64,000 nt of DNA from Psococerastis gibbosa (Eukaryota > Arthropoda > Insecta > Psocodea > Psocidae). Positions 15,156 to 52,398 of this stretch are shown one piece after another. The stretch lies in NCBI GenBank assembly GCA_963971405.1, contig OZ020485.1:4216001-4280000 (forward strand), in the 5' to 3' direction. How positions within the stretch are numbered: the first letter of the stretch is position 1; each line of letters opens with the position of its first letter. The translations under genes and the position numbers were made by a program. The notes below the pieces were generated by a model, which was not told the DNA's origin, searched no databases, and was given only the letters and a program-made list of their open reading frames with translations.

Positions 15156-15935
15156 AGTGGCGTAACAATAGGTTTTCGAAGGGGGAAAACCGTTCTCACA
15201 CATACAGCTTTAAATTAATGACCTTAGTGTCCTTTGTGTAGAAGTCAGAGGGTTCGGGAGACTTGAAGGGGGGGGGGGAGTAAACAGACCTGAAATAGTA
15301 TGAGTTGACGCATTTTGATAGCAGTAACTTTGAGGTTTTACAGACAATTAATACAACTGCGAAAAGGGGGGGCCCGGGGTTCTCCCCCGGGTGATTTTTT
15401 TTTTTAAAGAATTTGCCTGAAATAGTGGAGTTTTACGCATTTCGAGTGCAGTAACAATTTGATTTTAGACGGAAAGAATATAACTGCTTTCCAAAGGGGC
15501 AGTACCGGTCGCTGCGTCCGTATCTGGGGGTCTTCTCCGGGTGAATTTTTTTTTAATGTGGCTTGTAACAGTGGGATTGTACGCATTTTTATAGTAGTAC
15601 CGTTTGGATTATAAATGAAAATGAAAATAACTGGACAAGGGAGCCCCAGTGGTCTCCTCCGGGAGAAATTTCTTTAAAATGTGGCTAGTAATAGTGGGAT
15701 TGTAAGTATTTTGATAGTAGTTACGTTAAGATTTCACTGGCGATGAAAATAACTGGACAAGGGGGGTCCGGGGGTCTCCCCCGGTTGAAAATGTTTGAAA
15801 AGCATGCCTGAAATAGTGGGGTTTTACGCATTTTGAGTGCAGTAACACATAGATTTTAAAGGCGAAGAATATACTCTAAACAATGGGGGCTACCCCCAGC
15901 CCCCCAGGACCCCCCATTTTCCTCCTATGCCAGTC
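15156..15935. mobile_element. G-rich element with five internal tandem units of about 125 bp
   Basis: Left end agtggcgtaacaatagg, right end cctcctatgcc. Five units start near 15290, 15418, 15561, 15681 and 15807. Each has ctgaaatagtgggattttac-type sequence, gcattttgatagtagtaac, and a core with gggggtctcccccgg. Units differ by point changes and small indels. Similar units, inverted and fewer, are seen at 8990-9400, 16930-17180 and 42960-43140. No coding capacity. Confidence 0.75.
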
Positions 15936-16847: not shown

Positions 16848-17305
16848 AATCCAGCGTGGTCCAGCGGTTAAGACGACGCCCCGGTTAGGCGTAGATCGTG
16901 GGTTCGAATCCCGCCAGGCGCGGATATACGGGGGGGCTATAGGGGCTATAGCCCCCCCCCCCATTAGGGTCCTCAAAATGCGTAAAACCCCACTATTTCA
17001 GTCCTATTTGTCATAAATTTTCTCCCGGGGGAGACCCCCGGTCCCCGATAGTATTAATTACCTATGATATAGAACCCTTATTGCTCTGAAAATGCGTACA
17101 ACGCCAATATTTCAGCCCTATTTCCCAAAAAACATTCGGAATTTAATCTTAGCCCCCTCGTTGGTCTCATTCTAGATCCGCGCCTGAATTCCGCCAAGCC
17201 CAGTTTTTTCCATATCCTCTAATTTCGGTTATAAAGAGGAGGTTACCTCTTCAACCAAAGTTAATTTAATATCAGTGTTATATATACCATATATAATACT
17301 GCAAT
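16848..17305 (+). mobile_element. SINE family 3 split by a G-rich hAT-type element
   Basis: The tRNA-like head runs 16848-16914 (gtccagcggttaagacgac, then gtgggttcgaatcccgc). The rest resumes at 17186 with ccgccaagcccag, tcctctaatttcggttataa, ggttacctcttcaaccaaag and ends with atataatactgcaatg. The gap is exactly filled by the element at 16915-17185, with the 8-bp target duplicated, so the SINE is older than the insertion. Confidence 0.85.
16915..17185. mobile_element. G-rich hAT-type MITE inserted in a SINE
   Basis: Ends caggcgcggatatacg and tagatccgcgcctg are inverted with CAG...CTG termini. Flanking 8-mers aatcccgc (16907-16914) and aattccgc (17186-17193) differ at one base. Carries the ctcccgggggagacccccgg core of the G-rich family. 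Confidence 0.9.
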
Positions 17306-17439: not shown

Positions 17440-18163
17440 GTTCATGATTGCATTAGTCCTACTTACTTACTTTTTCCGCGCCATTTCCTCATGGAGGGTC
17501 GGCGGCAGAGCTGCGGCGTTTCCAGACGTTTCTGTCTTGCGCGTCCTCCCTTGTGAGCCCGGTTTCTTGCAGGTCGCTTACAATTTTCCTCTCCAGGGTG
17601 AGCTTTGGGCGCCCACGTGCTCGGCGTCCAGATACCATCGCCTCTCCCACTCTTCGTATAAGCGCTGATGCCTCTCTACTTTGCACGTGTCCCCACCAGC
17701 TGAGCCTCTTCCCTCTTAGTTTTTGCACCACGTCTGTTGTTCGCATTTCTTCCCGAATGTCCTCGTTTCTGCGCCTGTCATTTAATGTTACGCCACATTC
17801 CCTCCGCAGCATCCTCATCTCCGCTACGTGGATCACTTGTTCTTTGCGTTTACGCACGGCCCAACACTCAGCGCCATATATCATGCATGGCCTGACCACT
17901 TGTTTGTATATGCGACTTTTCAATTTCTTTGGCATCCTTCTGTCAGTCAGGACCGCGGACATCTCTCGAAACTTGGCCCACCCCGCAGCAATACCCGCCT
18001 TCACGTCGTTTTCGCCAATCGTGCTGCCTAGGTACTTAAACTTCCCTACTTTGTTTAGCTGATGGTTAACAACGCTTATGCTACCGGGAGTCTGCTTAAC
18101 GCACTCCATGTATTCTGTCTTGCCTCCGTTGACCTTTAGGCCTTCGTCCTCCAGCGTTTTCAC
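17440..18163 (-). pseudogene. LINE reverse transcriptase C-terminus (RTE-like), 5'-truncated
   Basis: An open frame from 18163 down to 17489 (224 codons) has KTEYMECVKQ, KYLGSTIGENDVK, DRRMPKKLKSRIYKQVVRP, YGAECWAVRKRKEQ, AEMRMLRRECGVTLNDRRRN, LSWWGHVQSRE and GRRARGRPKLTLE. These are the thumb and C-terminal motifs of RTE-type non-LTR reverse transcriptases. The catalytic YADD part is absent, as expected for 5' truncation. The minus-strand 3' end reaches aagtaagtaagtaggacta near 17455, a short tandem tail often seen in RTE elements. The clade call is from motif resemblance only. Confidence 0.85.
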
Positions 18164-18802
18164 CCATTTGTCCTAGAAAATACTAAATAGCTGTCATATT
18201 TAAGTGCAACTTGACCCTTTGCCAAACACCCTTCCTCCTTTACCTAGGCCGAAACTGCAGCCTCATCCAAGATTTTTGTGTGACCTATGATAAAATCATT
18301 GACACACCTGTACATGTATCGGACCCCCTGGTAACGTTATCATTATAGCAGTGGCCAATGCTTCCTCCACCAAGTTACGTGAAACTGCACTTTTTCAAGG
18401 CTAATCTTGGTCTCTATCGTTTCCCTCTCTCTTAATTTCTCTCTGTCTCTATCTCTCTATCTGTGGCGTTTATAAAATGATTTTCAGTTCTGCCTGAAAT
18501 TTCATGAAGGGGGATTCCCCACCAACTCTCAGGCCTGATCACTCGATTGGTTGTGGTTCCACTTCGATTGCTTTGTTTTTTAAGACCTATTTTTGCATTG
18601 GATGCGTGTTGGGTTCAACATCTGTATAGGCCTAGGTAGGTTACGATATCTGTAATCGGTTGGCGTATTATGTGGCCCTTACAGCTCTTAGGCCACACAC
18701 ATGGACGATTCTCGCAGTCCTGATTTGCCGACGTCTTTTCCATTGTAGGGATAAGACAACAGAACCGCAGAGTCTACCTTTGAAATCAGAAGATTTCTAT
18801 TA
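18164..18802. other. intronic sequence, nothing recognised
   Basis: A tctctctgtctctatctctc pyrimidine run lies near 18425-18465. Nothing else found. Confidence 0.4.
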
Positions 18803-34231: not shown

Positions 34232-34360
34232 TGTCCCAGTTCACCGGAGAAGTTCTGAAATTGGTCAAGATTACGCGGTCGGAGATGGGGGCCTACCTCT
34301 GCATCGCCTCCAACAATGTTCGGCCGTCTGTTAGTAAACGCATCATGGTCAGCGTACACT
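34232..34360 (+). CDS. DIP/Lachesin-like Ig protein, exon encoding end of Ig2
   Basis: Third exon here, phase 1 at both ends. It completes codon 127 (valine) and encodes residues 128-169. It contains the F and G strands of Ig2: LKLVKITRSEMGAYLCIASN holds the second cysteine (residue 150) with the usual D/E-x-G-x-Y-x-C pattern as EMGAYLC, followed by VRPSVSKRIMVSVH, the Ig2-Ig3 linker of this family. The acceptor is tcattgtttcag and the donor gtaagt. A 129-nt length keeps the frame. A four-unit inverted repeat structure starts about 100 bp downstream in the next intron. Confidence 0.94.
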
Positions 34361-38719: not shown

Positions 38720-39900
38720 AAAAATTAAATTAAGTAAGTTTTCTTTATTTTGTGTAGGGCTGTCCAATTGTGAGGATCGAATGTGTGATTTTCTGAGTTA
38801 AGGTGTTTGTGCTGTTGGTGTTGGTGTCTCCTATACCTGTTATATGTTCCTTGACCCTAGTTCTAAAGCTTCTGCCTGTTCGGCCTAAGTAAATTGCGTT
38901 ACAATCGTTACAATTTAGACGATAAACTCCATTGCCTTTTTCCTTTTCTGGTTTGGGTTTGCAGTTCATGAGTTTATTGCGGCTAAATTGTTGCGGTTGT
39001 ACGGGGCTGTTGTTTTGTCTGTTGTAGAAGAACTTTACGAATTAAGAACGTTACTTATTTTTTCTGTGATTTTTTCTATGTATTGTATTCTGAAATATGA
39101 TTTATTGGTTTCCGGGTTTATGCTCTCTGGGGGCAGGGATGGATCCAGCCCATTTTTTTTTTGGGGGGGGGTTGCTGAGGGTCAAAATAGGAAAAACTTA
39201 TGTAGGATCGACTAAATTAGAGCGTAATAACTTAATTTACAATAGATTTACCAAATTTGGGGGGGGGGGCAGCTACCCCCCCCCCTACCCCGCCCCTGTA
39301 TCCGTCCTTGTCTGGGGGGGTAAATTAGTTTGAGGTTGTGTTTGATTCTGTGATGTCGTAGGATTCTGTCTATTAGATTGAGATTGAAATTTGTTTTATT
39401 GTATTTAATTCATTATTATAGTTGGTTTCATTCATAGGAATATTAAGGAGTCGAAAAATCATACTATGGAAGGTTGCGTGTTTGTACTGGAATGGGTGAG
39501 AAGAATCAACAGGGATTATATTATCGCTATGGGTTTCTTTACGAAATATCTTGAAGTCTAGGGTACTATTATTTTTGGTGATGGTGAAGTCTAAGAAGTT
39601 ATGGGAGTTGTTTTCTTCTACTTCCATGGTAAATTGGATTTTTGTGTGAATGGTGTTGATAGAACTTAAGAAATTGTCTAGTTGTCTGTTACTTCCAGTC
39701 CAAATGCAGAAGATATCATCTACATACCTTGTCGGAAAGATATACCTACATTTAACTGAGGGATTTTTATTGAGTAGAAGTTACAAACTTCCATCTTCCA
39801 ACTTCTATCCTACCATCACTGTAAGCCCACAATATCTGCGTAAATGCTGCACATATTTATCAAAAATGACGCTAAAGGTTTCTTCTCGATCCCACTTCAG
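38720..39900 (-). pseudogene. Penelope-like element remnant
   Basis: Minus strand, two recognisable parts. From about 39750 to 39373: RYVDDIFCIWTGSNRQLDNF, then NFLDFTITKNNSTLDFKIFR and SSHPFQYKHATFHSMIFRLL, the palm and thumb of a Penelope-type reverse transcriptase. From 38969 to 38745: GVYRLNCNDCNAIYLGRTGR and SFRTRVKEHITG, the GIY-YIG-type endonuclease domain that follows in this class (here VYR...IYLG). The two are separated by the MITE at 39134-39310 and unassigned sequence. 5'-truncated and decayed with several breaks. Confidence 0.85.
39134..39310. mobile_element. G-rich hAT-type MITE inside the Penelope-like element
   Basis: Ends cagggatggatccag and ctgtatccgtccttg. Perfect 8-bp duplication tctggggg at 39126-39133 and 39311-39318. 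Two G tracts, one C tract. 177 bp. Confidence 0.93.
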
Positions 39901-41104: not shown

Positions 41105-41224
41105 TCCATCCTGTAATCCAAGTGCCAAATCAGCTAGTTGGCGCACCATTAGGTACTTCTGTTCGTGTAGAATGTAACGTAGAAGCTTCACCCAAATCAA
41201 TCAACTACTGGATTAGAGGAACAG
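41105..41224 (+). CDS. DIP/Lachesin-like Ig protein, exon encoding first half of Ig3
   Basis: Fourth exon here, 120 nt and symmetrical (phase 1-1). It completes codon 170 (F) and encodes residues 171-209: HPVIQVPNQLVGAPLG, then the Ig3 first cysteine in VRVECNVEA (residue 193) and the core tryptophan in SINYW (residue 205). This matches the family pattern FPPxxxxPNQLxGAxLG...LxCxxEAxPxSINYW. The acceptor tttttgtttcag is strong and the donor is gtaagc. It is the founder copy of a tandem array that repeats most of this exon and about 45 bp of downstream intron eight more times. Only this copy has the strong acceptor, so it is taken as the functional exon. Confidence 0.94.
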
Positions 41225-41270
41225 GTAAGCTTAAACCCGTAGAAACTAAGTAACCTGACTTGTAGTATAA

Positions 41271-42595
41271 TACGACCAGAATTCCTGGCACCTAATCAGC
41301 TAGTTGGCGCACCATTAGGCACTTCTGTTCGTGTAGAATGTAACGTAGAAGCTCCACCCAAATCAATCAACTACTGGATTAGAGGAACAGGTGAGCTTAA
41401 GCCCGTAGAAACTAAGTAACCTGACTTGTAGTATAATACGACCAGAATTCCTGGCACCTAATCAGCTAGTTGGCGCACCATTAGGCACTTCTGTTCGTGT
41501 AGAATGTAACGTAGAAGCTTCACCCAAATCAATCAACTACTGGATTAGAGGAACAGGTGAGCTTAAACCCGTAGAAACTAAGTAACCTGACTTATAGTAT
41601 AATACGACCAGAATTCCTGGCACCTAATCAGCTAGTTGGCGCAATATTAGGCACTTCTGTTCTTGTATAGAATATAACGTAGAAGCTTCACCCAAATCAA
41701 TCAACTACTGGATTAGAGGAACAGGTAAGCTTAAACCCGTAGAAACTCAGTAACCTGACTTGTAGTATAATACGGCCAGAATTCCTGGCACCTAATCAGC
41801 TAGTTGGCGCAATATTAGGCACTTCTGTTCTTGTATAGAATATAACGTAGAAGCTTCACCCAAATCAATCAACTACTGGATTAGAGGAACAGGTAAGCTT
41901 AAACCCGTAGAAACTAAGTAACCTGACTTGTAGTATAATACGACCAGAATTCCTGGCACCTAATCAGCTAGTTGGCGCAATATTAGGCACTTCTGTTCTT
42001 GTATAGAATATAACGTAGAAGCTTCACCCAAATCAATCAACTACTGGATTAGAGGAACAGGTGAGCTTAAACCCGTAGAAACTAAGTAACCTGACTTGTA
42101 GTATAATACGACCAGAATTCCTGGCACCTAATCAGCTAGTTGGCGCAATATTAGGCACTTCTGTTCTTCTATAGAATATAACGTAGAAGCTTCACCCAAA
42201 TCAATCAACTACTGGATTAGAGGAACAGATGAGCTTAAACCCGTAGAAACTAAGTAACCTGACTTGTAGTATAATACGACCAGAATTCCTGGCACCTAAT
42301 CAGCTAGTTGGCGCAATATTAGGCACTTCTGTTCTTGTATAGAATATAACGTAGAAGCTTCACCCAAATCAATCAACTACTGGATTAGAGGAACAGGTGA
42401 GCTTAAACCCGTAGAAACTAAGTAACCTGACTTGTAGTATAATACGACCAGAATTCCTGGCACCTAATCAGCTAGTTGGCGCAATATTAGGCACTTCTGT
42501 TCTTGTATAGAATGTAACGTAGAAGTTTCACTCAAATCAATCAATTAGAGGAACAGGTAAGCTTAAACCCGAGATACTAAGTAATCTCACCACTG
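41271..42595 (+). repeat. tandem array of eight partial copies of the Ig3 exon (166-168 bp units)
   Basis: Units recur with phase marks (start of the motif cctggcacctaatcagctag) at 41284, 41450, 41616, 41784, 41952, 42120, 42288 and 42456, in line with 41118 in the functional exon. Period is 166 bp, then 168 bp. Exon-equivalent parts end at 41390, 41556, 41724, 41892, 42060, 42228, 42396 and about 42556. The first two copies keep the frame (VRVECNVEA, SINYWIRGT). Copies three to eight share a ta insertion that makes gta-tag, a stop in frame, and gcaatattagg for gcaccattagg. Donors stay gtaagc or gtgagc except in the sixth copy (at). The last copy lost part of SINYW. None has the pyrimidine-rich acceptor of the real exon; each starts after gtataatacgaccag. 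Confidence 0.95.
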
Positions 42596-42813
42596 AGACC
42601 TTTCGGTGTGCACCGACGATGGCGTCAGGTTAGAAAGAATACTACGAACCAGCAGGAATTCTCAATAGTCACACAATCAAGTAGATTGCTGATGGCTTTA
42701 GGCTAGGACGTACAAAACCAACAACAGGCCTAGGTGTGTTTGGTCCTGGGGTTAAATATCTGGAGTCTCTTGGGGAGACAGCTACAGTATACCAACTACA
42801 GTATACCTCTCTG

Positions 42814-43141: not shown

Positions 43142-43177
43142 CGAATTCATCGCCAGGAAGATCTAACTTTTACTGCT

Positions 43178-43310
43178 TAAACCCGTAGAAACTAAGTAAC
43201 CTGACTTGTAGTATCATACGAACCGAATTTCTGACACCTAATCAGCCAGTCGGCGCACCATTATGCTTTATGCACTACTGTTCGTGTAGAACGTAGAGCT
43301 CATCCGGTTA
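43178..43310 (+). repeat. degenerate ninth copy of the Ig3-exon repeat
   Basis: Contains cccgtagaaactaagtaacc, cttgtagtatcatacga, cacctaatcagccagt and ttcgtgtagaacgtagag, matching the array unit with several substitutions, a small insertion and deletions. It is separated from the main array by about 580 bp that include a G-rich hAT-type element. It retains the cgtgtag form of copies one and two, so it probably split off before the 168-bp variant spread. Confidence 0.85.
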
Positions 43311-52227: not shown

Positions 52228-52398
52228 GTGAAATGGTGATTACTAGTGAAAAGTACACCGTGGAAACGAGTAGCCGCTCCGTTTTTGAAACAAAAATGAC
52301 TTTGTTAATTAGAAACTTCCAGAAGCTAGACGTCGGCACGTATAGGTGCATAGCCAAGAACTCGCTCGGCGAGGTTGATAGCAGTATCAGACTATATG
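52228..52398 (+). CDS. DIP/Lachesin-like Ig protein, exon encoding second half of Ig3
   Basis: Fifth exon here, phase 1-1. It completes codon 210 (G) and encodes residues 211-266. It opens EMVITSEKYTVETS (families usually show GDMIISSxKYxxxx), then MTLLIRNFQKLDVGTYRCIAKNSLGE with the second Ig3 cysteine at residue 250 and the D-x-G-x-Y-x-C motif, and ends VDSSIRLY. The acceptor is ttgtttcag and the donor gtgagt. It pairs with the exon at 41105-41224 across an 11-kb intron that contains the tandem exon array. Confidence 0.94.

Follow-up and report, generated by a model that had tools for sequence, protein, structure and literature searches.

The window analysed here, a 64-kb stretch of Psococerastis gibbosa DNA taken as a whole, contains three exons of one gene on the + strand, at 34232–34360 (the end of Ig2), 41105–41224 (the first half of Ig3; 120 nt, phase 1-1) and 52228–52398 (the second half of Ig3). 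The acceptors and donors of the first and the last were read directly, and the first terminates in phase 1 (...CAC T). The middle exon, referred to below as the founder exon, has a strong acceptor, TTTTTTTGTTTCAG, and the donor CAG/GTAAGC. Joined, the three exons form a single open frame throughout. The best PDB match to the encoded Ig3 is Drosophila Dpr-interacting protein alpha (DIP-alpha; 6efy, E 7.8e-55), followed by DIP-eta (E 2.3e-28) and DIP-theta (E 1.8e-26), and on this similarity the gene is identified as a DIP-alpha orthologue, a nerve-cell recognition gene, in agreement with the neuronal recognition gene named in an earlier, sequence-only reading of the stretch. Elsewhere in the window, three open frames on the - strand (17489–18172, 38745–39041 and 39373–39780) resemble, by reading, parts of reverse transcriptases or retroelements.

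The exon array in the Ig3 intron

The 11-kb intron between the two Ig3 exons holds a tandem array, which Tandem Repeats Finder placed at 41128–42584 with a period of 168, 8.8 copies, 97% matches and a score of 2613 (the second-best tandem array in the window scores 339), confirming the earlier description of an exon amplified inside its own gene. Downstream of the founder exon, at 41295–42596 on the + strand, lie eight units, of which seven are full and the last is truncated. Each consists of the last 96 nt of the founder exon, its donor and 70 bp of intron, as does the repeat-forming part of the founder itself (41129–41294, + strand). The earlier estimate of about 100 nt of exon per unit thus agrees with ours, but its 45 bp of intron is too short; likewise, its eight extra units of 166–168 bp are seven such units and an eighth that is truncated and ends in an interspersed repeat. 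By breakpoint, the start positions are 41129 (founder), 41295, 41461, 41627, 41795, 41963, 42131, 42299 and 42467, with spacings of 166 bp three times and then 168 bp five times. The breakpoint is abrupt: homology to the founder ends at AATCAG, 24 nt inside the founder exon, and because it lies within the exon, neither the acceptor nor the initial 24 nt of exon sequence was ever copied.

Units 1 (41295–41460) and 2 (41461–41626), of 166 bp each, have an open frame and the donor GTGAGC, and unit 1 is without an acceptor-like site. Units 3 (41627–41794) and 4 (41795–41962), of 168 bp, carry an in-frame stop and the donor GTAAGC; units 5 (41963–42130) and 7 (42299–42466), also of 168 bp and with a stop, have the donor GTGAGC and are identical to each other; unit 6 (42131–42298; 168 bp, stop) has lost its donor (ATGAGC); and the truncated unit 8 (42467–42596) combines an 8-bp exon deletion and a stop with the donor GTAAGC. 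All eight lie on the + strand. Alignment and translation showed that units 3–8 all carry an in-frame TAG, a change of CC to AT, and an insertion of 2 nt with a further change next to it, in line with the earlier division of the copies into two in frame and six sharing an insertion and a stop. The Ig cysteine codon TGT has become TAT in units 3–7. Identity among the founder and units 1–7 is 93.5–100% (28 pairs, gaps counted), and unit 8 has diverged more. Mis-assembly of a shorter array, which the identity of units 5 and 7 might indicate, is most improbable as the source of the extra units: the array measures just 1.5 kb, every pair of units other than 5 and 7 differs at one position or more, and the units fall into two subfamilies between unique flanks, with no N anywhere in the window.

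As a set of copies of one exon, in the same gene and the same orientation, the array is a tandem exon duplication, and its copies are not full exons with both splice sites; as head-to-tail, near-identical units at one locus, it is also a minisatellite, or local tandem repeat. To call it a satellite, as was done earlier, stretches a term that applies to large or multi-locus arrays. A search of the 409-Mb assembly with a 296-bp query, which skips very common words, found the unit at this locus only; the one other match was a paralogous exon, at 71%. On this search a genome-wide satellite is rejected. A transposon origin of the unit, of which no other copies were found, is unsupported.

Splice sites and reading frames of the units

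A GT donor is kept in seven of the eight units and matches the consensus at 7–8 of 9 positions; the earlier statement that each unit carries a 5' splice site fails at unit 6, where the GT is lost. Acceptors were scored with a matrix of 15 acceptors of the same genome (12 from paralogous DIP-type Ig3 exons and 3 from other exons of the host gene), located in the sequence by eye or by rule. In leave-one-out scoring these 15 real acceptors range from 3.8 to 15.1, and the founder acceptor, outside the training set, scores 16.7. None of the 116 AGs of the array, which amount to about 15 independent ones, reaches the 3.8 of the weakest real acceptor (the best scores 1.9), and the CCAG sites of the units, at -0.2 to -1.9, score below all 15; no unit, then, has a strong acceptor, as the sequence-only reading had held. 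In the rest of the same intron 27 of 548 AGs reach 3.8. Acceptors are absent from the array, but depletion below chance is not proven by this, because one array period holds 15 AGs and the chance of finding none above threshold among 15 is 0.47. There is likewise no ratchet point for recursive splicing (a pyrimidine tract and AG directly before GT), the 116 AGs scored including those at AG/GT junctions.

As a control we scored an exon cluster of the same genome that is apparently Dscam-like, a term resting on a reading of its protein sequence. With the best AG of several taken per exon copy, an upstream AG scores at least 7.7 in three of its five copies (2.5 and -0.7 in the others). That the DIP-alpha array is itself a cluster of mutually exclusive exons of the Dscam kind, whether active or decayed, is extremely improbable. 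It shares with such clusters tandem copies of one phase-symmetric exon from the Ig superfamily, but here the acceptor was never copied, six of the eight units contain a stop, the near-identical units show no diversification, and the founder is irreplaceable: splicing of the preceding exon (...CACT, ending at 34360) into unit 1 via CCAG creates a TAA across the junction, and the AA start is shared by all units.

Splicing from the founder to a unit gives GAA at the join. The founder joined to unit 1, to unit 2 or to both stays open, with 37 codons added per unit, whereas joining it to any of units 3–8 leads to a stop. These frames bear out the 1-1 phase symmetry of exon and unit and both junction codons predicted earlier, and together with the acceptor scores they support the view that alternative use is unlikely unless copies follow the founder. 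Even in that arrangement, with founder-to-unit splicing via CCAG adding unit 1 or 2 as an in-frame cassette exon or one of units 3–8 as a poison exon, we regard such use as very unlikely. The junctions are phase-symmetric, and by our own reading of the sequence CCAG stands at a plausible distance from a branchpoint-like CTGAC motif; the CCAG scores, however, lie well outside the range of real acceptors, and Ig3 would presumably be disrupted by a repeat of the first half of the Ig fold.

The intact donors invite another explanation, raised in part by the sequence-only reading: seven of them could recruit U1 and delay removal of the 11-kb intron, or could be used as alternative donors leading to a premature stop, and so tune the level of DIP-alpha mRNA. 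An exon that ran from the founder acceptor as far as the donor position in any unit would indeed meet the same stop, 9 codons past the founder exon, the donors fit the consensus well, and a second gene, described below, contains donors arrayed in the same way. Yet the extended exons would measure at least 286 nt, the donor is lost in one unit of the window and in one of the four units of the second gene, no acceptor lies near the units, and recent copying alone explains the intact donors. Decoy exons, by contrast, typically carry both splice sites. We consider this explanation improbable; with one donor lost, acceptors absent and most units broken, the proposal of splice decoys found no positive support. 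That donor arrays are maintained as decoys of variable copy number seems more doubtful still. Intronic splice sites without productive use, as predicted here, are also a property of the decoy exons described as promoting intron retention, for example in OGT (PMC12017769), but the donors of the array, unlike those, have no acceptor partner. Decoy, cassette and poison-exon roles alike are improbable and find no positive support at this locus.

Array history and related loci

The array ends at a high-copy interspersed repeat of approximately 217 bp (42597–42813, + strand), which is only tentatively classed as SINE-like, by size and copy number; it has 2097 first-look candidates genome-wide, and the best relatives among the 40 scored are 93% identical over that interval. 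Another repeat follows it, with GGGGGAGACCCCCGG motifs, similar to 15291–15865 and 16973–17130. Farther downstream, at 43175–43295 (+ strand), lies another unit fragment, older and more diverged, which has its intron/exon breakpoint at the same place and is 86% identical to the founder query; it falls outside the range 41105–42595 given earlier. Set against the eight unit introns compared, the fragment departs from every one of them at the same 5 positions out of 66, while the founder differs from all units at one fixed column of 168. Because the fragment shares the breakpoint yet differs from all the unit introns compared, the array is probably older than the similarity of its units suggests, and the units beside the founder would have been homogenised or regenerated since; this dating assumes similar mutation rates on either side of the inserted element. 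Units 3–8 form a single clade (support 93), and the clustering of their changes has a probability of about 0.05 by chance, a value on which no claim is based here. The intron end of the unit (41271–41294) matches the 5' end of the exon that it replaces at 11 of 21 positions, a level that 0.65% of positions elsewhere in the intron attain; this likeness is a possible, and only suggestive, trace of homeology-guided exchange.

A protein search returned 20 matches, 8 in the array and 12 elsewhere. Around the 12 paralogous exons, blastn with two array units found no array. When each of these DIP-type exons was compared with its own 3-kb locus, 11 of the 12 proved single and one, at the locus designated L029, had extra copies. 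None of 30 kinase loci, cut out around 30 of the 134 matches listed, had a non-self match. The contrast between 2 of 13 DIP-type exons and 0 of 30 kinase loci gives P = 0.086 when the exon of the window is counted; as that exon was the starting point, the fair count is 1 of 12, and no difference in frequency can be claimed.

Locus L029 mirrors the design of the window array. Three decayed, 3'-truncated copies (L029:~1012–1122, 1236–1277 and 1364–1405; contig C13 near 35059.1–35059.5 kb) lie upstream of the paralogous DIP-type Ig3 exon, to which they are 79–88% identical over 42–47 bp, the farthest copy being 70% identical over 114 bp. Their match to the exon ends at L029:1578, approximately 55 bp before the exon donor, and their acceptor sides score 2.8 or less. 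A DNA search found no relatives of this locus elsewhere in the genome.

We also read by eye the lists of genome matches to I-set (at least 150), pkinase (at least 134), fn3 (at least 116), 7tm_1 (at least 146), ion channel (at least 101), p450 (at least 94), MFS (at least 10) and COX1 (at least 43) models. Among the COX1 matches listed, 42 lie off contig C68, and a pair at C14:11085363–11086704 covers the whole family model; we read these matches as probable nuclear copies, many in number, of mitochondrial DNA. COX1 itself is translated with the invertebrate mitochondrial code.

Besides the Dscam-like exons, the matches listed contain, by eye, one more group of equal partial matches at regular spacing: three 7tm_1 matches on C14 (stretches L073 and L074), in a G protein-coupled receptor (GPCR) gene. 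Here, at L074:774–1853 (C14:38988673–38989752), a founder exon of 200 nt (L074:774–973; acceptor score 10.6, donor GAG/GTAAGT, open frame) precedes four units spaced 192 to approximately 195 bp apart and then a short fragment reaching to 1853. The units are 85–98% identical to the matching part of the founder and begin approximately 73 nt inside the exon, each containing its last ~127 nt, the donor and ~65 bp of intron. Unit 3 has a frameshift and a lost donor; the frame is open in units 1, 2 and 4. None of the 31 AGs in the first two units reaches 3.8, the best, at 3.7, coming close. This array arose independently with the same design as that of the window, a 5'-truncated exon with its donor. 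A tandem array seeded by an exon of a recognition gene, called unusual in the sequence-only reading, is thus only partly so, there being a second of its design in the same genome.

Exon copies in introns are common. The survey by Ivanov and Pervouchine (2022, PMC9013439) counts 4,027 unannotated intronic targets of tandem exon duplication in human genes, singles out dpy, hydra and heph as outliers in the fly, and reports cell adhesion and nervous system genes as over-represented in the top 200. As in those duplications, the copies in the window lie in an intron of the same gene and on the same strand, but they differ in being 5'-truncated, in lacking an acceptor and in forming an eight-unit array of near-identical copies. 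The CapA satellite of Platyrrhini (New World monkeys) is reported (PMC8210747, PMC7210261) to derive from intronic sequence of NOS1AP and to make up ~5% of the genome, an expansion attributed by its authors to unequal crossing-over. There too a gene segment present in single copy was duplicated and then expanded; CapA, however, is a large satellite, whereas the array of the window stays at its birthplace and contains sequence of a coding exon. Our search of the open-access literature listed no report of arrays of acceptor-less exon fragments, which is weak evidence of their novelty.

Origin and significance of the array

Taken together, the data argue strongly that the locus carries an intronic array without function, grown from a coding exon that was duplicated in tandem with its 5' end missing, and that arrays of this kind recur in the genome. 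The first part is supported by the position of the breakpoint in the exon, the lack of any acceptor-like AG, the stops in six of the eight units, the lost donor of unit 6 and the deletion in unit 8, and the second from the same design of the GPCR array and the mirror design at L029.

We propose the following sequence of events. A duplication would have joined the intron approximately 70 bp past the founder donor to the point 24 nt inside the founder exon, producing a copy that kept the 3' end of the exon, the donor and intron and, as the breakpoint shows, left out the acceptor. With a single splice site this copy would not have been recognised as an exon, nor removed by selection. Unequal exchange, conversion or slippage may then have raised the copy number and kept the units and the flank of the founder alike, as the identity patterns suggest. 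Insertion of a transposon, to judge from the remnant at 43175–43295, would have cut off one old unit, which then diverged. The array itself would be removed together with the 11-kb intron.

A duplication with both breakpoints in introns would add a complete exon, which would be spliced in, in most cases with harmful effect; a breakpoint within the exon would leave one intact exon and a copy that splicing ignores. Copies downstream of the exon would lack the acceptor and copies upstream the donor, and because of the missing splice site they would be free to multiply. The three loci fit this rule, and one intact exon remains at each of them (window, GPCR gene and L029); the cases were found by looking, and the rule is not proven.

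Several observations run against a non-functional reading. Units 1 and 2 have open frames in the right phase, so that the reading frame would survive if they were spliced in after the founder; three of the four GPCR units are open as well; good donors are kept in seven of the eight units of the window; and the absence of acceptors rests on approximately 15 independent AGs. Such copies may also not always be inert, because unannotated intronic exon copies in human genes are reported to have mean RNA coverage and conservation above those of control regions (PMC9013439).

A broader and more speculative possibility, which we advance tentatively and think rather unlikely, is that arrays of half exons to which splicing is blind constitute a recurrent class, with steps of roughly nucleosome size (128–195 bp), a shared mechanism creating them at exon borders and splicing acting as the filter on which exon duplications can grow. 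Such a class would always have one intact exon at its end, with copies lacking the acceptor if downstream and the donor if upstream.

The wider implication of the preferred reading, a non-functional array grown from a truncated copy of a coding exon, is that a duplication with its breakpoint inside a coding exon can turn that exon into the seed of a tandem array. If the rule is true, truncated arrays should greatly outnumber complete ones among those that overlap exons genome-wide. The DIP-alpha locus itself, where a functional exon stands at the edge of a homogenising array of mostly stop-bearing copies, would offer a natural setting in which to test how selection protects an exon that has defective copies of itself alongside.
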